Source: Chlamydiia bacterium (GTDB taxonomy: Bacteria; Chlamydiota; Chlamydiia; Chlamydiales; JAAKFR01). Taken from it: DNA of 34,014 bases. Within the stretch, counting starts at the first letter, position 1, and the number at the start of each line of letters is the position of its first letter. The notes under the pieces are model-generated. The model was not told the origin of the DNA and did no database searches. It saw only the letters and a list, made by a program, of their open reading frames with translations. Both the position numbers and the translations under genes were made by a program. Below are positions 3,333 through 34,014 of this stretch, in pieces. The stretch spans positions 1-34,014 of the forward strand of contig JAGRNW010000009.1 in NCBI GenBank assembly GCA_020440555.1, given 5' to 3'.

Positions 3333-3365
3333 TCTTTCACCTTTGATAAGTATCCTTTGGCGCAG

Positions 3366-3400
3366 CCAAAATCCCAATTCTTGAAGTGGAATGGGTATAT
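3366..3400. repeat. dispersed repeat copy B: single arm
   Basis: The sequence CAGCCAAAATCCCAATTC, continuing into GAAGTGGAATGGGTAT, is identical over about 36 bp to the right arm of the 163-bp element at 6411. No matching opposite arm is present nearby, so this is a solo end. It lies between the SWIB gene and ispD, downstream of the SWIB terminator as read on the minus strand. Confidence 0.8.
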
Positions 3401-3969: not shown

Positions 3970-6243
3970 ATGACATATTTTCCACCTTGTGAACAGCCCT
4001 TGATCATCTGGGGGGAAGAGAGAGAAATTGTGAGTAAGGAAGTGGTGCAGGTAGAAGAGGTTTGTCAAGAGATTCTCAAACGTACAAATCAAGTTGAAAA
4101 AAATGCTTTTCTTTTGGATTTGAAACAGGTCAAAGAAGGGTTAAAAGATCCAAAGATTGGAACGTTATTCTCAAAATTGAATGGTGATGAAGTTTATGTG
4201 GGGACCTTCCTTTCTGTGCTTGCTATTTTTCAACAAAAGGTTTTGTTTGCTTATGCTGATGATCTCGATCCAGATGTTGTGGATAAACGATTCAAAGCTC
4301 TTATGGATCAACTTGTGACGGTTGAAAAAACCTATCTCAGCCTGGGTGGAGTGATTGGTTATCACGCGGCGGTTAAGCGATTGCTTGCCATGGACAGAAG
4401 AAAAATCGAGAGCCGGAAAATAAGTCGAGCATCGGGACCTGATATTGGCTCTTCAAATGAGACAAGGCAGAAGGCGGTGATAGAGGGCCTCAGACTCATG
4501 CCAGAGTTGGCAGAAATTTATCCCATTGGAGGGTTGGGGTCCAGACTAGGTCTCAGAGATCGCTTTGGAATCCCTCTTCCCGCTGCCGCCCTGAAATTTG
4601 GGGGGAGAACTCTCCTCGAAGGATTATTGCGTGATCTTGAAGCCAGAGAATATCTTTATTATAAAGTTTTTGGACATGAAATCACAACTCCCATTGCCAT
4701 GATGACCTCTCACGAAAAACATAATCATCTTCATATCAAGATCCTGCTAGAACAAAATCAATGGTTCGATCGAAAGCCTGAGACTTTCTTTTTGTTTGTC
4801 CAACCTTCAGTCCCTGTTTTAACCGAAAAAGGAGAGTGGGTGATGCGGGGAGATTTGGAGCTCTACCTTCAGCCAGGAGGGCACGGCGCGATCTGGCAGG
4901 TCGCAAGCCAAGAGGGGGTATTCGATTGGTTTGCAAAGCTAGGACGCAAAGTGGGAGTTATCCGACAAATTAATAATCCGATTGCTGGGGTAGATGATGG
5001 TCTTTTGGCTTTTACAGGAGTAGGTCATCTCAACAACAAAGTTTTTGGTCTTGCCTCTTGTGACCGTCTTGTTCAAACAGCTGAAGGGATGCTTGTTCTT
5101 TCCTCAAATCAAAAAGGGGTAACCCTCTCCAATATCGAATACACCGATTTTAAAGCTCAGAAAATTGAAGATTGTCCCGTAAAACCTGGTAGTTCCTATT
5201 CCTGTTATCCCGCTAATACCAATATCATTTATGTTGATTTTGAAAAAATCGCTCCTTACATCGCTAAGCAGCCCCTTCCTGGATTGATGATCAATATGAA
5301 AACAAAACTTGATCTTCAGTCGTCTAAAACGGGTCGCATCAATCGGCTTGCCTGCGGGCGTCTCGAAAGTATGATGCAAAATATCTCGGATGAGCTTGTA
5401 GGTAGAAGAGAGGAGGAACTTCCCACTTTTCTGACCTATAACTCTCGAGAAAAAACCATTTCAACAGTCAAGCAATCCTACTTTTCTGAACGTTCAATGG
5501 TAGAAACTCCGGTTGGGGCTTACTATGATCTTCTTAAAAACGGTCATACCCTCCTTAAAAATCATTGTAAGGTAAAGGTTCCTCCCTTCTCAAAACAATA
5601 TGAATATCTTGAAAATGGACCTTCGGTTCTTTTTGTATATCGCCCTGCCCTTGGTCCCTTGTGGGATGTGATTGGGCAGAAAATTGTTGGAGGGGAATTT
5701 ATGCCAAATTGTGAACTTAACTTGGAGATTGTGGATCTCAAACTTTTCAATCTTGTCCTTGATGGCTCTCTTCTTATCGAGGCTAAAAATCCATTAGGGA
5801 GAACAGAGAGCTCTCGATTTGGGTGTGGGGGGGGGCGAGCGATTTTGGAAAATGTAGTGGTGACCAATTTGGGGATCGATCGAAGGATCCCTCAAACATG
5901 GTGGAAAAATGAAATCAGTAGACTTGAGGCATGCATGATCACACTTGAGGGAAATGGAGAGATTATATTGAAAAATATCGCTCTTGAAGGGAATCAGATG
6001 ATCACGGTTCCTGATGGAGAAAGGTGGACGGCAAAAGGATTTGAGGAGGGAAAAGTTGTGTGGATAAAAGAAAAAATTACAAATCCTGCCTGGGAGTGGA
6101 AGTATGCATTAAGAGATAACGCCATCAACCTTGAGCTGGTGGAGAACAGTACCGATCATAAGCTTTTTTCACCAAGTAAAGAACTCCAGACATTGGCACA
6201 ACAAACAAGGCAGCAAAAAAGAGAAGGGGAACGAAGTGATTGA
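3970..6243 (+). CDS. large UDP-sugar pyrophosphorylase-like nucleotidyltransferase, plant UGP3-like
   Basis: The 757-residue product has a nucleotidyltransferase core from about residue 185. YPIGGLGSRLGLRDR is the UTP-binding loop, followed by IPLPAAALKFGGRTLLEGLL, then MMTSHEKHNH and QPGGHGAIWQVA. The last 250 residues, with repeated short strands (DLKLFNLVLDGSLLIEA, GEIILKNIALEGN), look beta-helical. The arrangement and many blocks (EAREYLYYKVFG, FDWFAKLGRK, FGLASC) recall the plant plastid UDP-glucose pyrophosphorylase UGP3, used in sulfolipid synthesis, more than ordinary bacterial GalU. The expected reaction is UTP plus a sugar 1-phosphate giving UDP-sugar; the actual substrate is unknown. 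No sulfolipid gene is visible nearby. No clear ribosome binding site precedes the ATG. The 3' end overlaps a possible opposing small gene. Confidence 0.75.
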   Translation: MTYFPPCEQPLIIWGEEREIVSKEVVQVEEVCQEILKRTNQVEKNAFLLDLKQVKEGLKDPKIGTLFSKLNGDEVYVGTFLSVLAIFQQKVLFAYADDLDPDVVDKRFKALMDQLVTVEKTYLSLGGVIGYHAAVKRLLAMDRRKIESRKISRASGPDIGSSNETRQKAVIEGLRLMPELAEIYPIGGLGSRLGLRDRFGIPLPAAALKFGGRTLLEGLLRDLEAREYLYYKVFGHEITTPIAMMTSHEKHNHLHIKILLEQNQWFDRKPETFFLFVQPSVPVLTEKGEWVMRGDLELYLQPGGHGAIWQVASQEGVFDWFAKLGRKVGVIRQINNPIAGVDDGLLAFTGVGHLNNKVFGLASCDRLVQTAEGMLVLSSNQKGVTLSNIEYTDFKAQKIEDCPVKPGSSYSCYPANTNIIYVDFEKIAPYIAKQPLPGLMINMKTKLDLQSSKTGRINRLACGRLESMMQNISDELVGRREEELPTFLTYNSREKTISTVKQSYFSERSMVETPVGAYYDLLKNGHTLLKNHCKVKVPPFSKQYEYLENGPSVLFVYRPALGPLWDVIGQKIVGGEFMPNCELNLEIVDLKLFNLVLDGSLLIEAKNPLGRTESSRFGCGGGRAILENVVVTNLGIDRRIPQTWWKNEISRLEACMITLEGNGEIILKNIALEGNQMITVPDGERWTAKGFEEGKVVWIKEKITNPAWEWKYALRDNAINLELVENSTDHKLFSPSKELQTLAQQTRQQKREGERSD

Positions 6244-6394
6244 ATGGGTTAATAAAAAGATCTAAAAAAAATTCTTTTGCAATCATAGCTGTAGTCGTTG
6301 AAGTAGTCGTGGCGACGGTGACGCCCGTTGACCATAAAACTCCAGTCACTGCTCCGATAAAGGCCATTTTTAGTTCTTTCAATTCAGATCCCAT
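6125..6394 (-). CDS. possible small two-helix membrane protein
   Basis: An 89-codon frame could encode a protein with two hydrophobic stretches: MAFIGAVTGVLWSTGVTVA, and FVPLLFFAALFVVPMSGVLY near the C-terminus, ending in a polar tail. The last 119 bp are antisense to the end of the UGP3-like gene. The frame extends upstream through the repeat element at 6411, but that part is palindromic DNA and unlikely to be translated, so I start at the first Met beyond it. No ribosome binding site is obvious. It is not recognisable as a known family and may be spurious; the long hydrophobic character is its only support. Confidence 0.3.
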   Translation of the reverse strand: MGSELKELKMAFIGAVTGVLWSTGVTVATTTSTTTAMIAKEFFLDLFINPFNHFVPLLFFAALFVVPMSGVLYLVKKAYDRYCSPPAQG

Positions 6395-6410
6395 TCTGGG
6401 CAACCAATGG

Positions 6411-6573
6411 TATACCCATTCCACTTCAAGAATTGGTTTTTGGCAATGCGAAAATTCCCGCGATTGAACGATCATAAACAGCCCAATATTAGAAATATGG
6501 GGTTGTTTATGATCGTTCAAGCTCGGGGCTTTGACACAGCCAAAATCCCAATTCTTGAAGTGGAATGGGTATA
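6411..6573. mobile_element. dispersed repeat copy C: 163-bp MITE-like hairpin element
   Basis: The element starts TATACCCATTCCACTTCAAG and ends with the reverse complement, giving terminal inverted repeats of 26 bp that continue imperfectly to about 34 bp. Inside is a second perfect 17-bp inverted repeat (TTGAACGATCATAAACA and its complement, about 6464-6480 and 6504-6520) around a small AT-rich centre. The whole element can fold into one rod. It has no coding capacity. The TATA ends are consistent with a TA target duplication as made by IS630/Tc1-type transposases, so I read it as a non-autonomous miniature element. It lies in the 3' region between the UGP3-like gene and prfB. Positions may be off by one. 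Confidence 0.8.
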
Positions 6574-6608
6574 GAATATCAAGTAGCACAATTTTTGTCC
6601 TTTGAGTA

Positions 6609-6621
6609 AGATGTAACATCT
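6609..6621. promoter_or_regulatory. 13-bp palindrome upstream of prfB
   Basis: AGATGTAACATCT is a perfect 6-1-6 palindrome 59 bp before the prfB start. Its core AGATGTAACAT recurs, on the other strand, upstream of euo (14218-14229). It could be a protein-binding site; no binding protein can be named. Confidence 0.3.
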
Positions 6622-6680
6622 CAATCTTAGGCAAAAAATTTGCTTACGATGAGGGATCAATTCTAGGTAAGGTGATGTTT

Positions 6681-7791
6681 ATGAAAGAAGAATTAGACAC
6701 AAGACTAAAAAATATGCAAGAACGAGTCCTTCATATGTGGAGGTATCTTTGACCTCGAAAAGAAGCAAAAACGAGTGGTTGCTCTCGAAGAAGAGATGGA
6801 GGTCGAACATTTTTGGGATGATGCCGCTTTAGCTCAAGAAAAAATTGCCAAATGTAATGAGCTTAAAGAATGGACTGTTCCTTATCATGAAGCGAAAAGC
6901 CGTTTTGAAAGTGTGGTCTCTCTTTTGCCCGAAGCCATCGAATTAGCAGATGAAGCTTTAATTGCTGATCTTATTGCGGAGCTTGCTGAAGTAGATAAAG
7001 TCCTTGGACAACTGGAAATTCGTCGGATGTTGGGGCACGAGCTAGATAATAAAAATTGTTACTTAAGTATCAATGCAGGGGCAGGAGGAACTGAGAGTTG
7101 TGATTGGGTGAGCATGCTGGCTCGGATGTATCAAAGATGGGCGGGAAAAAAAGGATGGCAGGTAACGCTTGTTGATCAAGTAGATGGAGATGTCGCTGGA
7201 ATTAAAAATATCACCTATAAATTTTCTGGTTCTTTCGCTTATGGGTATGCTAAAGCCGAAAAAGGGGTTCATAGATTAGTAAGAATCTCTCCTTTTGATA
7301 GTGGTAGCAGACGACATACAAGTTTTGCATCTGTCGATGTAACACCTGAGATCACCGATGATATTCGGGTAGAGCTCAATCCTCAAGATCTCAGAATAGA
7401 TACCTTCCGCTCTTCTGGAGCAGGGGGGCAACATGTGAATGTGACTGATTCTGCTGTAAGAGTCACCCATATCCCGACAGGAATTGTAGTTACCTGCCAA
7501 AATGAGCGAAGTCAGCTACAAAATAAAGAGACATGTATGAAAATTTTGCGTTCTAAGCTTTATGAAAAAGAGGTGCTTGAACGGCAGGCGGAATTAGATA
7601 AAATGGGGGGAGAGAAAAAAGAGATTGCTTGGGGGAGTCAGATCAGAAATTATGTCTTCCAACCCTATACGCTTGTCAAAGACACAAGAACGGGGTATGA
7701 AACAGGCAATATCACAGCCATGATGGATGGTGAGCTTCTCGATCCTTTTGTGGAAGCTTATTTAAAAGAATTTGGGAGTTTCAATGAGTGA
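6681..7791 (+). CDS. prfB: peptide chain release factor 2 (programmed +1 frameshift)
   Basis: RF2 releases nascent chains at UGA and UAA. Translation from the ATG at 6681 (AAGGTG lies six bases upstream) gives 23 codons ending CTT TGA. Skipping one base at 6750 continues as DLEKKQKRVVALEEEMEVEHFW to the stop at 7791, about 369 residues in all, normal for RF2. The domain 2 stop-recognition tripeptide SPF (RISPFDSGSRRHTS) and the peptidyl-transferase motif GGQ (SSGAGGQHVN) are both present near residues 202 and 247. The frameshift is the classical autoregulation: at low RF2 levels the UGA is read slowly and the ribosome shifts. An alternative ATG lies at 6675. The 3' end overlaps the acetyltransferase gene by 8 bp. 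Confidence 0.96.
6738..6753 (+). promoter_or_regulatory. programmed +1 frameshift site of prfB
   Basis: The run TGGAGGTATCTTTGAC contains an internal Shine-Dalgarno-like GGAGG three bases before the slippery CTT codon, followed by the in-frame UGA and a C. This is the same arrangement as the bacterial RF2 shift site. The zero frame ends at the TGA (6750-6752), and the +1 frame enters at GAC (6751). Confidence 0.95.
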
Positions 7792-8991: not shown

Positions 8992-9714
8992 ATGGCAGGA
9001 CACAGTAAATGGGCCAATATCAAACACAAAAAAGAACGAGCTGACGCCCAAAAAGGGAAGATTTTTTCTAGGGTGTCTAAGGAGATTATTAGTGCTGTCA
9101 AGGTGGGGGGGGCCGATCCCAAAAGTAATGCTCGCCTTCGGCTCGCCATTGAAAAAGCAAAGGCTGCCAACGTTCCTAACGAAAATATCGAAAGAAATAT
9201 CAAAAAGGCAGCAAATGTTGATCAGACCGATTATACTTCCATTACCTATGAAATTTATGGTCATGGGGGAGTAGGGATGCTTGTCGAAATGATGACAGAT
9301 AACAAAAACAGAGCGGCTTCAGATATAAGGATTGCGATCAACAAACGCGGAGGATCAATTGGTTCTCCAGGTTCAGTAGCTTTTAATTTTGACCGCAAGG
9401 GAGTGATTCAGGTCGCCTCGAATGAAGAGAATGAAGAAGTTCTTTTTCAAGCAACCATTGAAGCAGGGGCCGAGGATTTTGAAGCAGTGGAAGAAGGGTA
9501 TATGATCACCACGGATCCTGCGGATCTTTATATCGTTAAAGAAAAACTTGAAGAAAAAGGAATCGTGACTGTTGGGGTTGATATTGAGATGATTCCGAAA
9601 ACACTTGTAGTTTGCGATGAGGAGACACAGCGAAGTAATCTCGCCCTGATCGAATGGCTAGAGGATCTCGATGATGTCAATAATGTTTACCACAACATGG
9701 ATACCAATTCTTGA
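8992..9714 (+). CDS. yebC: YebC/TACO1-family protein
   Basis: The 240-residue product begins MAGHSKWANIKHKKERADAQKGK, the hallmark of the family, and continues with GGADPKSNARLRLAIEKAKAANVPNENIERNIKKA. The middle carries YEIYGHGGVGMLVEMMTDNKNR, and the C-terminal part the usual LIEWLEDLDDVNNVYHNM. Family members act as translation activators or transcriptional regulators; recent work points to relief of ribosome stalling. That would suit its place in an operon with prfB. The final codons after HNM (DTNS and the stop) lie inside repeat copy D, so the natural end of the gene has been replaced by repeat sequence. Confidence 0.95.
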   Translation: MAGHSKWANIKHKKERADAQKGKIFSRVSKEIISAVKVGGADPKSNARLRLAIEKAKAANVPNENIERNIKKAANVDQTDYTSITYEIYGHGGVGMLVEMMTDNKNRAASDIRIAINKRGGSIGSPGSVAFNFDRKGVIQVASNEENEEVLFQATIEAGAEDFEAVEEGYMITTDPADLYIVKEKLEEKGIVTVGVDIEMIPKTLVVCDEETQRSNLALIEWLEDLDDVNNVYHNMDTNS

Positions 9715-9729
9715 AGTGGAATGGGTATA
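9701..9729. repeat. dispersed repeat copy D: minimal copy forming the yebC stop
   Basis: ATACCAATTCTTG followed by AAGTGGAATGGGTATA is a 29-bp copy lacking an internal region. It is nearly identical to copy F at 33646. The TGA of yebC (9712-9714) is part of the repeat motif, and the first bases encode the last residues of YebC. No separate terminator is visible downstream. Confidence 0.8.
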
Positions 9730-16919: not shown

Positions 16920-18896
16920 TCAGGGCGTTTGCCCTGTATTTTTTCTTTTTAAAAGACGCAATGCATTTGCAATCACAATTAGTGTAGCTCCCGTGTCTGC
17001 CGCGATTGCCATCCATAGGGTCGCTAATTCAAGAAGGGCTAATACGAAGAAAATCCCCTTTACAAACAAAGAAAATCCGATATTTTGTTTGATCACACGC
17101 AGCGTCCATCTCGAATGCTTTATTAGCCAGGGAACTCTTGATAAATCATCACTCATCAAAGCGATGTCTGCTGCTTCCATCGCTACATCTGCCCCCATTC
17201 CTCCCATTGCAATTCCCAAAGTGGCGCAAGCTAACGCAGGCGCATCATTCACTCCGTCTCCAATCATCGCCACTGCTCCCACTTCTTGTTTCAAATTCTC
17301 GACCGCATTCACTTTGTCCTCAGGAAGGAGATTGGCCATATATTCTTCGATACCAGCATGTTCAGCAATTGCCTTGGCCGTCTGCACATTGTCTCCCGTG
17401 AGCATTACAATCTTTTCAATACCAAGCTCTTTCAATGCTAGAATCGTTTTCGCAATCTCCCTTCGAGGCTCATCTGCCACTGAGATCAGTCCACACACAT
17501 GATCATCAGTTCCAATGGCGATCATTGAATGGCCTGCATCTTCTAAAGCTACAGCTTTTGCATGAACTTCTTCGGTTTCTTGACCCTCTTCATGCATCAA
17601 TCGATGGGAGCCCATCCAATATTGTTTACCGAAGAGGGTAGCCTCCGCTCCCTTGCCCTTAATGATAGTAAAATTTTTCATCGAAGGAATTTCAATATTT
17701 TTTGCGTGTGCCATCTTCATGATAGCCTTAGCGAGTGGATGATCACTGTTTTGTTCCAGCGCCGCTGCCCGTACGAGAAGTTCTAATTCTGTATGTTGAT
17801 TTAGAGGGACAATAGTTTGTACCTCGGGATGTCCATAAGTGAGGGTTCCTGTTTTATCTAGAGCCAAAACTTTGATTTTTCCAATGGTTTCCAGATAAAT
17901 TCCTCCTTTGATCAAAACTCCTGTTCTAGCAGCTGAAGTAAGTGCAGATACAATGCTTACAGGAGTTGAAATGACAAGAGCGCAAGGACAAGCAATCACG
18001 AGAAGGACAAGCCCTTGATAAATCCAATCAAACCAAGGGAAACCAAGCAAAAGAGGGGGGATAATCATCACCAAAATAGAAAAAAAGAGCATTAAAGGGG
18101 TGTATACTTTAGCGAAGCGTTCCACCCATTGCTCATTTTTAGAACGTTTTTCTTTCGCCTCTTCCACTAAACGGATGATTCTTGCCAGGGTTGTATTATT
18201 AAACCTCTTAGTGACTGTAATTTCAAGTGCTCCTTCCTCATTCAGAGTCCCTGCAAAAACCTCGTCTCCCTCCTCTTTGGGGCATGGAATGGATTCTCCC
18301 GTAATCGGCGATTGATTGATCGAAGAGATGCCCGAAGCAACCACTCCATCAAGCGGAACTTTTTCTCCAGGTTTTATAAGAAGCCGCGTCCCAATCTCAA
18401 TTTCGTCGACTTGTTTTTCTTCCACTTGTCCATTAAACGGATTCATCACGTGAGCGCGGGGGGGGGCGAGATCAAGAAGTGAGGAGATAGCTCGACGAGC
18501 CCTCCCAACACTCCACATTTCCAAACAAAGAGCGAGTGAGAAAAGAAAAGCCACGGAAGCCGCTTCAAACCACTCTTGTATCCCAATAGCTCCTAAAATA
18601 GCGATCACCATCAACAGATTGATATCGGGGCGGATCTTTTTTACAGAACAATAGGCTTTAGGGACTATCATCCACACTCCGGAAATCACCGCCAACACAT
18701 ACAAAATTTTGGATGAGAAGGGTATCGTATGCCCATTGCCGCCCCTCTCAAATAAGTCGAGGTGAATAAAGGAATGGGTGAGGAAACCTGCAATTAAAAA
18801 TAGAAAAGACAGAAGTGTTGAAAGCTCTCTGATGTAGCGAAAACCTTTAGGTTTTGCACCGCAACAAAGCTCATTCTTCTTTTCTTGTTCGCTCAC
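16920..18896 (-). CDS. P1B-type heavy-metal-transporting ATPase, zinc/cadmium group
   Basis: The 658-residue pump has at least six membrane segments and all P-type landmarks: ITGESIPC (actuator loop), the transmembrane metal site VIACPCALVIS, LALDKTGTLTYG (phosphorylated Asp), NSDHPLAKAI (the HP locus specific to P1B pumps), and MIGDGVNDAPALACA. The final transmembrane region ends AADTGATLIVIANALRLL. That acidic DxG motif is characteristic of the Zn/Cd/Pb (ZntA/CadA) group, so zinc export is the best guess. The usual N-terminal HMA domain is missing; only CCGAK at residues 11-15 might bind metal. The GTG start overlaps the argS stop by two bases (GTGA), so expression is coupled to argS. Confidence 0.92.
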   Translation of the reverse strand: MSEQEKKNELCCGAKPKGFRYIRELSTLLSFLFLIAGFLTHSFIHLDLFERGGNGHTIPFSSKILYVLAVISGVWMIVPKAYCSVKKIRPDINLLMVIAILGAIGIQEWFEAASVAFLFSLALCLEMWSVGRARRAISSLLDLAPPRAHVMNPFNGQVEEKQVDEIEIGTRLLIKPGEKVPLDGVVASGISSINQSPITGESIPCPKEEGDEVFAGTLNEEGALEITVTKRFNNTTLARIIRLVEEAKEKRSKNEQWVERFAKVYTPLMLFFSILVMIIPPLLLGFPWFDWIYQGLVLLVIACPCALVISTPVSIVSALTSAARTGVLIKGGIYLETIGKIKVLALDKTGTLTYGHPEVQTIVPLNQHTELELLVRAAALEQNSDHPLAKAIMKMAHAKNIEIPSMKNFTIIKGKGAEATLFGKQYWMGSHRLMHEEGQETEEVHAKAVALEDAGHSMIAIGTDDHVCGLISVADEPRREIAKTILALKELGIEKIVMLTGDNVQTAKAIAEHAGIEEYMANLLPEDKVNAVENLKQEVGAVAMIGDGVNDAPALACATLGIAMGGMGADVAMEAADIALMSDDLSRVPWLIKHSRWTLRVIKQNIGFSLFVKGIFFVLALLELATLWMAIAADTGATLIVIANALRLLKRKNTGQTP

Positions 18897-28834: not shown

Positions 28835-28864
28835 CTCACTCTATGCAAAACTCAGATGGCTGCA

Positions 28865-28901
28865 CAGTCAAAATCCCAATTTTTGAAGTGGAATGGGTAT
28901 A
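28865..28901. repeat. dispersed repeat copy E: single arm
   Basis: ACAGTCAAAATCCCAATTTT followed by GAAGTGGAATGGGTATA matches copies B and C with a few substitutions. It fills the 73-bp gap where secDF and murA converge and ends 7 bp from the murA stop codon. No partner arm is present. Confidence 0.8.
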
Positions 28902-30702: not shown

Positions 30703-31158
30703 ATGAGCAAAACTTTAAAATTGTTTGCTGCAGCGCTTCTAGTATTGAGCGTCGTATGCACAGCTGGTTGTAGTCGGTGGTGTGATTGTTTCGGCGATCC
30801 TTGCTGCAAGCCTAAGTGTGAGCCTTGCTGCTACCCTCGTACTAAAACTAAGTGCTGCCCTGATAGATGTGAGCCATGTTGTCCATCAAAGTGTGACCCA
30901 TGCTGCGCACCTAAGTGTGAGCCATGCTGTCCACCAAAATGTGACCCATGTAGCCCATCACAATGTGATCCATGTAGCCCATCAAAATGTGATCCATGTA
31001 GCCCATCAAAATGTGACCCATGTTGTCCATCAAAATGTGACCCATGCTATCCATCAAAGTGCAATCCGTGCAACCCATGTCCTTCTAACTGCAATCCGTG
31101 CACGCCTTGCCCACCTCGATGTAGCCCATGTGATCCTTGCCCAGGCCGTTGCTATTAA
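30703..31158 (+). CDS. omcA: small cysteine-rich outer membrane lipoprotein OmcA
   Basis: OmcA is a small lipoprotein of the disulfide-crosslinked envelope of chlamydial elementary bodies. The 151-residue precursor has a signal peptide ending VVCTAGC, a lipobox-like site with Cys23. The mature part is mainly Cys, Pro, Lys/Arg and Asp, and contains four near-identical units of the type CDPCSPSK (24 bp each, about 30949-31044) flanked by diverged units ([20 protein letters not shown]). It is longer than the roughly 90-residue OmcA of C. trachomatis, the difference lying in the repeat. AAGGAG sits seven bases before the ATG. omcB follows 210 bp downstream, as in Chlamydia. Expression is expected late in development. 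Confidence 0.88.
30889..31080 (+). repeat. 24-bp tandem repeat inside omcA
   Basis: Units of the form TGTGATCCATGTAGCCCATC plus four bases repeat about eight times, with the central three almost identical, each coding for eight residues (CDPCxPSK). The in-frame length keeps the reading frame whatever the copy number, so number variation between strains is possible. Confidence 0.85.
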
Positions 31159-31368: not shown

Positions 31369-33003
31369 ATGATCCGACCCTTTCGAGTCTTTTTATCAGT
31401 GCTCATGGTAATGGGCCTGTTTACGTTAAGTAGCTGCATGCGCAGCCAATACGGTTCAAATTCGTCTTGCTATTCGCCACGATGCGAGCCGATTGCACCA
31501 ACTTGTTGTCAACCCGATGATTTAAATTGTTTCGCACCTTGCGGTCCTGATTTTTATCCATGCGGGGGAGGAAAGTGTGGTTCTGTCAATGGCAGTCAGC
31601 CCTGTTTTCCAGAGGAAATCTGCTATCGTAATATGCGGAGCTATGAGACCTGTGATGACTGTAACGTCTATCTGCGTCAGTGTGCTCCCGAGTTTGCAAC
31701 AGTAGGTGCACCTTATCCAATTGAAATTCACATCACAGCTGTGAAGGAATGTGCAGCTGTGGAAGTGAATCAAACCCTGCCTTGTGATTCAACATTCATT
31801 AAAAGTGAACCATCTGCAATACCCAATGAAGATGGAACTTTAACTTGGAGTTTTCCTCACATGACAGAGGGACAAACTCAATCGATTTGCGTCTGGGTGA
31901 AACCTTCTCGAGAAGGATGTTGTTTAGCAGCAGCCACTGTGTGTGCTTGCCCACAACTTTGTGCTTACACAAACTGTGGTCAACCTGTTGTTTGCATCAA
32001 TAAGTGTGGGCCAGCTTGTGGGTGTCTGAACTGCCCTGTTAATTATGTGATTGATGTTTGTAATAGTGGATCAGCAACCGCCTATGATGTTGTTGTCACA
32101 GATACTGTTCCAGATGGACTTGTCCACTGTAGTGGAATGAGATGCCTCCGCTATGAGTTGGGAGCTCTTTGCCCCGGTGATTCTAAAAGAATTTGCGTTG
32201 AATTTTGCGCTTGTAAGCCGGGAATGGTGTGTAATACAGCAACTGTGACCTATTGCGGTGGGCCAGACTGCAGTGCCGAAGCTTGCACAATGATTAATGA
32301 GCCCTGTGTTGAAGTCACCAAAACAGGTCCCGACTGGGCTTATATCTGTAAGACTGTTGAATATACTATCACTGTCACGAATCCAGGTGATTTAGTTCTT
32401 CGAGATGTGATCATCGATGATGTTTCAGCTCCAGGAACGGTCATCGTTGCTGCTCCCGGTGCTGAAGTTTGTTGCAATCGGGCTATCTGGTGCATTCCAG
32501 AGTTTTGTCCAGGAGAAACCCGAACATTCACAGTGTCTGTGAAGTCTCAGGTTCCAGGAAAACTTTGTAACAAGGTTGCTGTGACATCACAATCTGATTG
32601 TGGTCCATGCACTGAGTGTGCAGAGGCTTGCACGTTGTGGAAGGGAATTCCTGCTGTACATATGTGTATGGTGGATACAACTGATCCAATCTGTATTGGC
32701 GAGTCAACAGTTTACAGAGTCTGTGTGACCAACCGTGGTACAGCTGATGATCATAATGTGAAGTTGGTGATCAAGTTCACTGATGAACTGCAACCACAAA
32801 GTGTTAATGGTCCGACTAAGGGAACTATTTCTGGTCAAACTGTGACATTCGAGCCTATCGACAAGATGTTGCCTAAGCAGTCATTTGAGTTTTGTGTGAC
32901 TGTGAAAGGAGTTTCTGTTGGAGATGCTCGTGGAGAAGCGACATTATCTTCTGATATGTTGAGCTCTCCGGTGGTCGATACCGAGAGTACGCACGTTTAC
33001 TAG
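31369..33003 (+). CDS. omcB: large cysteine-rich outer membrane protein OmcB
   Basis: OmcB is the main crosslinked structural protein of the elementary-body envelope. The 544-residue precursor has a signal peptide, then a Cys-rich N-terminal region (about residues 23-100). Several beta-sandwich repeats of the DUF11 type follow, for example YVIDVCNSGSATAYDVVVTD, PDGLVHCSG, YTITVTNPGDLVLRDVIIDD and YRVCVTNRGTADDHNVKLVI. Dozens of Cys residues are spread over the whole length. The leader ends LFTLSSCMRS, a good lipobox (LSSC), so this version may be lipid-anchored, unlike what I know for Chlamydia OmcB. TAGGAG lies six bases before the ATG. A strong terminator follows. Confidence 0.93.
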   Translation: MIRPFRVFLSVLMVMGLFTLSSCMRSQYGSNSSCYSPRCEPIAPTCCQPDDLNCFAPCGPDFYPCGGGKCGSVNGSQPCFPEEICYRNMRSYETCDDCNVYLRQCAPEFATVGAPYPIEIHITAVKECAAVEVNQTLPCDSTFIKSEPSAIPNEDGTLTWSFPHMTEGQTQSICVWVKPSREGCCLAAATVCACPQLCAYTNCGQPVVCINKCGPACGCLNCPVNYVIDVCNSGSATAYDVVVTDTVPDGLVHCSGMRCLRYELGALCPGDSKRICVEFCACKPGMVCNTATVTYCGGPDCSAEACTMINEPCVEVTKTGPDWAYICKTVEYTITVTNPGDLVLRDVIIDDVSAPGTVIVAAPGAEVCCNRAIWCIPEFCPGETRTFTVSVKSQVPGKLCNKVAVTSQSDCGPCTECAEACTLWKGIPAVHMCMVDTTDPICIGESTVYRVCVTNRGTADDHNVKLVIKFTDELQPQSVNGPTKGTISGQTVTFEPIDKMLPKQSFEFCVTVKGVSVGDARGEATLSSDMLSSPVVDTESTHVY

Positions 33004-33645: not shown

Positions 33646-33676
33646 TATACCCAATTCTTGAAGTGGAATGGGTATA
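33646..33676. repeat. dispersed repeat copy F: minimal 31-bp copy with TATACCC/GGGTATA ends
   Basis: The sequence begins TATACCCAATTC and ends GGAATGGGTATA. Only the outer seven bases of the left end are kept, joined directly to a right arm. It looks like a full element whose interior was deleted by recombination or imprecise excision. It lies between ispF and an opposing small ORF. Confidence 0.8.
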
Positions 33677-33685
33677 AAATCTAAT

Positions 33686-33952
33686 CTAATTTTTAGACTT
33701 TGCTCTATTCGAGGGAGGCAAACCTAAGGCTTTCGCTTTTATCAGAATTTCCTGATGTTTCTGCTTAAGCTCTTCAAAACGTTTCTGACTGCGCTCAAGA
33801 CTAGCTTTTTTTTCTTCTTCAAACGGAAGTTCCGCCAAGAGACTTTTGCTATCCTCTACACTACCAAGGGTGTAGTGAACTTGCTGCATCGTTTGGGTTT
33901 TGCCTACAAAAAGCCAAAACTGATTCCTGGAAAAGCTGATGCTGAGAAACAA
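33686..33952 (-). pseudogene. short charged ORF, probably the surviving end of a disrupted gene
   Basis: The C-terminal 45-50 residues (ASLERSQKRFEELKQKHQEI, then LIKAKALGLPPSNRAKSKN) look like a real coiled-coil tail of a minus-strand protein. The N-terminal 40 residues, from about 33825 upward, are simply the antisense of a transposase coding segment on the plus strand. I therefore read it as the 3' remnant of a gene cut by an insertion element near 33825. Its family is not recognisable. Confidence 0.4.
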
Positions 33953-34014
33953 AAAGCCTTTTTAGAAGAGTATGAGAAGCTCAAAAAAGAGCGAAAAGAG
34001 GGTGAAGAGATTCT
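33818..34014 (+). mobile_element. IS630-type transposase fragment, truncated at both ends in this window
   Basis: The plus-strand frame reads TTKGVVNLLHRLGFAYKKPK followed by LIPGKADAEKQKAFLEEYEK and a Lys/Glu-rich stretch up to the window end. This is the characteristic linker of IS630-family transposases between the helix-turn-helix and the DDE catalytic domain (LLHRLGFxYKKPKxxPGKAD). The N-terminal part that should precede it is missing: upstream codons become poly-Phe and there is no fitting start, so the gene appears 5'-truncated. The catalytic domain would lie beyond the window. The overlapping minus-strand ORF ends inside it. Confidence 0.75.

Follow-up and report, generated by a model that had tools for sequence, protein, structure and literature searches.

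A 163-bp palindrome near prfB in a Chlamydiia genome is probably a full-length copy of an order-wide, IS630-type MITE lineage

The window analyzed, a stretch of 34,014 nucleotides, is contig 181 of a draft genome of 1,574,034 bases (181 contigs) from a Chlamydiia bacterium. A 163-bp element resides between the end of a gene encoding UDPGP and hexapeptide domains (3970-6243) and prfB. The start of prfB is found about 108 bp past the element, and the gene features the usual in-frame TGA frameshift site GGAGGTATCTTTGAC (6681-6760). Runs of about 9-10 G residues, candidate phase-variable tracts, are present within two long ORFs, at 5820-5839 in the UDPGP-domain ORF (3970-6243) and at 18451-18470 in the ORF 16920-18896 (minus strand). 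The element and its relatives in the window are given below; scores refer to the covariance model R1, built from 18 copies of type A (the element type related to the window copy) from 8 genomes.

6411-6573, minus strand: full-length 163-bp element, oriented by the core polarity predicted by R1 (minus 176 bits, plus 138 bits)
6411-6436, plus strand: left terminal inverted repeat TATACCCATTCCACTTCAAGAATTGG, the outer TA being taken as the duplicated target
6464-6480, plus strand: left arm of the inner 17-bp perfect inverted repeat, within the conserved core
6504-6520, plus strand: right arm of the inner 17-bp perfect inverted repeat
6548-6573, plus strand: right terminal inverted repeat CCAATTCTTGAAGTGGAATGGGTATA
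313-429, no strand assigned: separate 117-bp hairpin, relative of the element (R1, 83 bits)
3355-3399, plus strand: truncated copy, right end only, upstream of ispD
9700-9729, plus strand: putative deletion form of about 30 bp, which supplies the stop codon (TGA, 9712-9714) of a yebC-family ORF
28857-28901, plus strand: truncated copy, right end only, between convergent genes
33646-33676, plus strand: putative 31-bp deletion form TATACCCAATTCTTGAAGTGGAATGGGTATA, just after ispF

The left 26-bp end (6411-6436) is the exact reverse complement of the right one (6548-6573), and the whole element is a near-complete palindrome. Folded as single-stranded DNA it reaches -63.3 kcal/mol, compared with -16.4 +/- 2.9 for shuffled sequences (z = -16). 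The hairpin with nested inverted repeats reported in a preliminary description of this DNA is thus borne out, as is the statement that the element carries no gene, the sole ORF spanning it (6125-6634, minus strand), a mechanical read-through, having no Pfam match. The five other places in the window where parts of the element had been said to recur were all found again (313-429, 3355-3399, about 9700-9729, 28857-28901 and 33646-33676). The arms of the 117-bp relative have diverged, yet are mutually complementary (316-369 and 373-426, 93% complementary). An N-terminally degenerate IS630 transposase (33755-34012, plus strand; HTH_33, E 2.7e-13) starts about 80 bp after the 31-bp form and runs off the contig end. 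An ORF made up of cysteine-rich 24-bp tandem repeats (30703-31158), with no Pfam match, adjoins the gene of a cysteine-rich outer membrane protein (Chlam_OMP6, 31369-33003).

A search of the whole 1.57-Mb genome with the 26-bp end, as had been proposed, gave 95 matches at up to 3 mismatches, and none with the reversed control pattern; copies elsewhere, the lack of which would have spoken against a mobile family, are therefore abundant. Paired ends fall into size classes of 163-164, 193, 117, 71-73 and 36 bp, and single ends include forms of 31 and about 28 bp. The 71-73, 36 and 31-bp forms are common, as are short forms devoid of the core. Judging from their junctions, the short forms look like internal deletions: in the 31- and 36-bp forms TATACCC or TATACCCATTCC is joined to AATTCTTG at CC/CCC, and in the 72-bp forms (e.g., C96:11914) the junction falls at a TTCAAG common to end and core. 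One and the same 72-bp form is found between unlike flanks at C117:1971 and C121:54, which means that either short forms are themselves mobile or one deletion has arisen repeatedly. The two arms of copies in this genome deviate jointly from the consensus at 16 cells, 3.0 being expected. No larger pairs of terminal inverted repeats flanking a gene were found in this genome. The ends of contigs C111, C176, C7, C10, C15 and C140 (G000) fall within element arms; the palindromes thus interrupt the metagenome assembly and explain part of its fragmentation. Half elements with unrelated left flanks (in C25, C94, C125, C166, C106, C170 and C180) were set aside, since draft contigs break inside the palindrome and some of them may be assembly artefacts; the half element at C15:287 resembles a genuine deletion that extends into a flanking repeat.

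Empty sites were sought by joining the flanks of copies and searching for the empty versions, and two cases are clear. In G035, a 163-bp copy is nested in another copy of the element (L302), the filled site reading AAG-TA-[TACCG...CGGTA]-TA-AACCC, and the empty versions (L171, L289) AAG-TA-AACCC. In the window's own genome, a 36-bp copy (C20:965-1000) resides inside a repeat, other copies of which (C100, C115) read TGATT-TA-GGCAACAA. From the comparison of filled and empty sequences in both genomes, TA is duplicated on insertion, and the true ends of the element are TAC...GTA. Both nested and repeat-embedded insertions thus show the target-site duplication expected of a MITE, at the TA used by IS630 and Tc1/mariner elements.

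According to mechanical gene calls, and counting single ends too, the neighboring ORFs are convergent for 25 copies, tandem for 24 and divergent for 7. As a genome has roughly as many convergent as divergent gaps, the excess of the former over the latter denotes promoter avoidance, or use at 3' ends.

The family extends far beyond what the preliminary description proposed. A degenerate end pattern matched 54 of 234 genomes of the order Chlamydiales (control, 0). Full-length homologues, mostly 161-166 bp long, were detected by R1 in 85 of 177 genomes and 68 of 114 genera of the order, although hairpin shape alone may account for the score of the weakest matches; 16 candidates were scored per genome, and copy numbers are lower bounds. 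At E <= 0.001, R1 had no match in 92 of the 177 genomes, some of the window's own family among them, and none in 247 kb of non-chlamydial loci, and no relative of the element was found in collections of plasmid and viral contigs. Copies reside in named chlamydial contigs, such as those of Parachlamydia sp. bin.582 (L067). End matches number 65 in a closed genome of 2,496,337 bp, which in length matches that of Simkania negevensis, and 45 in one of 2,116,312 bp, which matches Waddlia chondrophila in length (PMC2878342). No match to the end pattern was found in genus-14 genomes (1.0-1.3 Mb, probably classical Chlamydia). Paired copies are 161-166 bp long in many genera. Type-A copies of 163 bp from Simkania align with the window copy almost gap-free; others differ markedly in the interior while keeping a similar length, and those of Waddlia measure 175 bp. 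The element lineage is probably old and widespread in Chlamydiales. Literature searches for a chlamydial MITE or palindromic element returned no paper describing it, so the suggestion of an undescribed miniature family stands, but the family is spread over the order. One palindromic lineage is therefore present in about half of the sampled genomes of an order whose classical members have been described as nearly repeat-free (PMC2878342).

Families with diverged end sequences have retained both length and core. At the outer five bases, mostly TATAC, there is hardly any variation; conservation is lowest at end positions 6-16 (0.83 bits), and in the core (27-137) it ranges from 1.1 to 1.4 bits. 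Since R1 scores one orientation higher in every copy, by about 4-59 bits, the core has a polarity. In an alignment of 18 copies dominated by Simkania (A1), 94.4% of the cells in 65 pairs are standard pairs, and 32 of these pairs have changed on both sides. The covariation score reaches 0.356; shuffling gives 0.157, and sliding the partners gives 0.096 at most. When 27 genomes were represented by one copy each, two-sided changes were seen at 47 of 67 pairs. With 31 G-U and 28 A-C cells in this set, the two are equally rare, which suggests that the palindrome is maintained as DNA rather than as RNA.

IS630 transposases were verified by matches to DDE_3 and NF033545. In three other genomes they are flanked by ends resembling those of the local element. 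In the Simkania-sized genome (G231; L309), the ends of a 1,119-bp IS (952-2070) are TATACTCAAGGTGACTCAAAAATTGG and TATACCCAAGGAAATTCAAAAGTTGG, those of the local element TATACTCAAACAACTTCAAAAATTGG. One IS630 end in G168 (L308) is identical to the local element at 26 of 26 positions, and in G009, where element ends are atypical (TATAGCAGAATCAGTTGAAAAATTTACA), the IS630 end TATATTCAAATAGATTGAAAATTTTACA agrees at 20 of 28. An IS630 also appears to have inserted itself in a TA of an element's apical loop in G009. The partner is, from these end sequences, likely of IS630 type. In the window's own genome, the search for an IS630 with matching inner ends was negative: the readable ends of its IS630 copies and fragments (C66, C88, C33, C136 and window 33755-34012) are TATACTCAGG... 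or TATACCCTTCG... and have only the outer bases TATAC(CC) in common with the element. These IS630 were discarded as direct partners, their ends disagreeing beyond the outer bases; the partner may have been lost from this genome, or collapsed in the assembly. DDE_3 matches were also missing in several genomes rich in copies, for instance in G035 (99% complete), and no transposase flanked by element ends was seen in two regions of G231 searched for autonomous copies (992500-995600 and 873000-877600). An IS630 group of the own genome has ends TATACTCAGGYRRATTTAGTTTGAG (L327, L325), the L325 member being internally deleted with both ends kept.

The element most probably (rough probability 0.78) is a full-length copy of an order-wide lineage of IS630-type MITEs, mobilized in trans, the arms of which are kept complementary at the DNA level. 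The MITE-like nature already proposed for it has gained from the terminal repeats, the lack of coding capacity, the roughly 95 ends per genome, the TA duplication, and the IS630 with similar ends in other genomes; a length of 163 bp, perfect 26-bp terminal repeats and dispersed non-coding copies are what is generally expected of MITEs. IS630-family (Tc1/mariner-type) DDE transposases would move the gene-less element in trans, recognizing the terminal repeats and joining the ends to a TA dinucleotide, which would be duplicated. Once a copy is inserted, its middle could be lost by slippage between short repeats (CC/CCC or TTCAAG), as the junctions suggest, and remnants of 71-73, 36, 31 and about 28 bp would be left. 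Arms stay complementary while ends diverge between genera; their matching would be ensured on the DNA itself, by selection for a matched pair of transposase sites together with template-switch correction between arms, not by a folded RNA. Copies would build up where least harmful, behind stop codons and in gaps between convergent genes. New features are the spread over a whole order, the retention of length and core with lineage-specific, mutually complementary ends, and the DNA-symmetric covariation.

A plain trans-mobilized MITE is predicted to have conserved ends and a free interior; here end positions 6-16 are less conserved than the core. The middle, not the ends, might then be the conserved functional part of an ancient mobile palindrome; tentatively, the core would be under selection in each lineage, as a DNA structure or as a module bound by protein, and the terminal arms would be re-tuned to the IS630 transposase of each lineage and kept complementary by arm-to-arm correction. 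Similarly, and compatibly with a trans-mobilized MITE, the palindrome could function as DNA, a chlamydial protein (a nucleoid, replication or recombination factor, or the transposase itself) reading the conserved core or its cruciform and thereby keeping length and core constant in all lineages. The length of 161-166 bp in many genera, a core better conserved than positions 6-16, the polarity kept in each copy and the DNA-symmetric covariation are in line with such a role, which is nonetheless doubtful, as copy number is erratic, the 92 genomes with no match at E <= 0.001 include members of the window's own family, and short forms without core are common.

Selection on a transcript fold, the element being a conserved structured RNA, or a 3'-UTR or terminator hairpin, copied around the genome, is improbable. 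All helices covary strongly, the apical loop and the core are conserved, and sites after stop codons and between convergent genes are preferred; moreover, in the smaller, Simkania-dominated A1 alignment a hand count gave about 48 G-U against about 25 A-C cells, cells not being independent. Yet a functional RNA strand should tolerate G-U, which in the 27-genome set is no more frequent than A-C; according to RNA energies neither strand is consistently better folded, no Rfam family is matched at the gathering threshold, and no T run is found behind the hairpin. The equality of G-U and A-C, the missing strand bias and the missing Rfam family led to its rejection as the main explanation. Spread without IS630, as by the HUH/Y1 transposase of REP and REPIN sequences, would account for copy-rich genomes with no detectable IS630 but is the least probable reading and was rejected, the TA duplication at nested sites being a Tc1/mariner hallmark, which HUH elements are not known to make, and the ends reading TATAC with no GTAG or CGTC tag.

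Small mobile repeats of other bacteria offer partial parallels to the IS630-type MITE lineage. The 107-bp RUP elements of Streptococcus pneumoniae are thought to be moved by IS630-Spn1 (PMC3049150). They are likewise small, non-coding, highly base-paired and flanked by a target duplication, with ends resembling an IS630 of the same host; by description they differ in size and sequence, and are confined to one species group, whereas the chlamydial lineage is order-wide and has a conserved core. Correia or NEMIS elements of Neisseria have 26-bp ends beginning with TATA, and a TA target. They are repetitive intergenic MITEs, present in more than 120 copies per genome (PMC10969869). High copy number and location between genes are common to both families; Correia elements, by description, have another sequence, occur in one genus, and often reside upstream of genes with promoter activity, whereas chlamydial copies are mostly 3' of genes. 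Rickettsia palindromic elements (RPE) are palindromic repeats of about 100-150 bp of obligate intracellular bacteria, with deletion forms. By description, RPE often reside within genes in the reading frame, and no transposase is known for them, whereas the chlamydial element is mostly intergenic with IS630-like ends. REP and REPIN sequences, associated with TnpA-REP (RAYT), are also short, palindromic, extragenic and highly repeated; they carry the tag absent from the chlamydial element, and lack the TA target duplication.

The chlamydial copies make up a natural data set for testing whether palindromes undergo correction at the DNA level. A likely donor transposase is also provided for tests. 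A second family of palindromic repeats, with arms AACCTGAGTTTTGGGTTTTTC...AACCCAAAACTCAGGTT, was noticed at L041 (C25), L138 (C99), L008 (C96) and L329, and looks like another MITE-like family; a related AACCTGAGTTTTGGGG stretch is found behind an element in G017 (L162).
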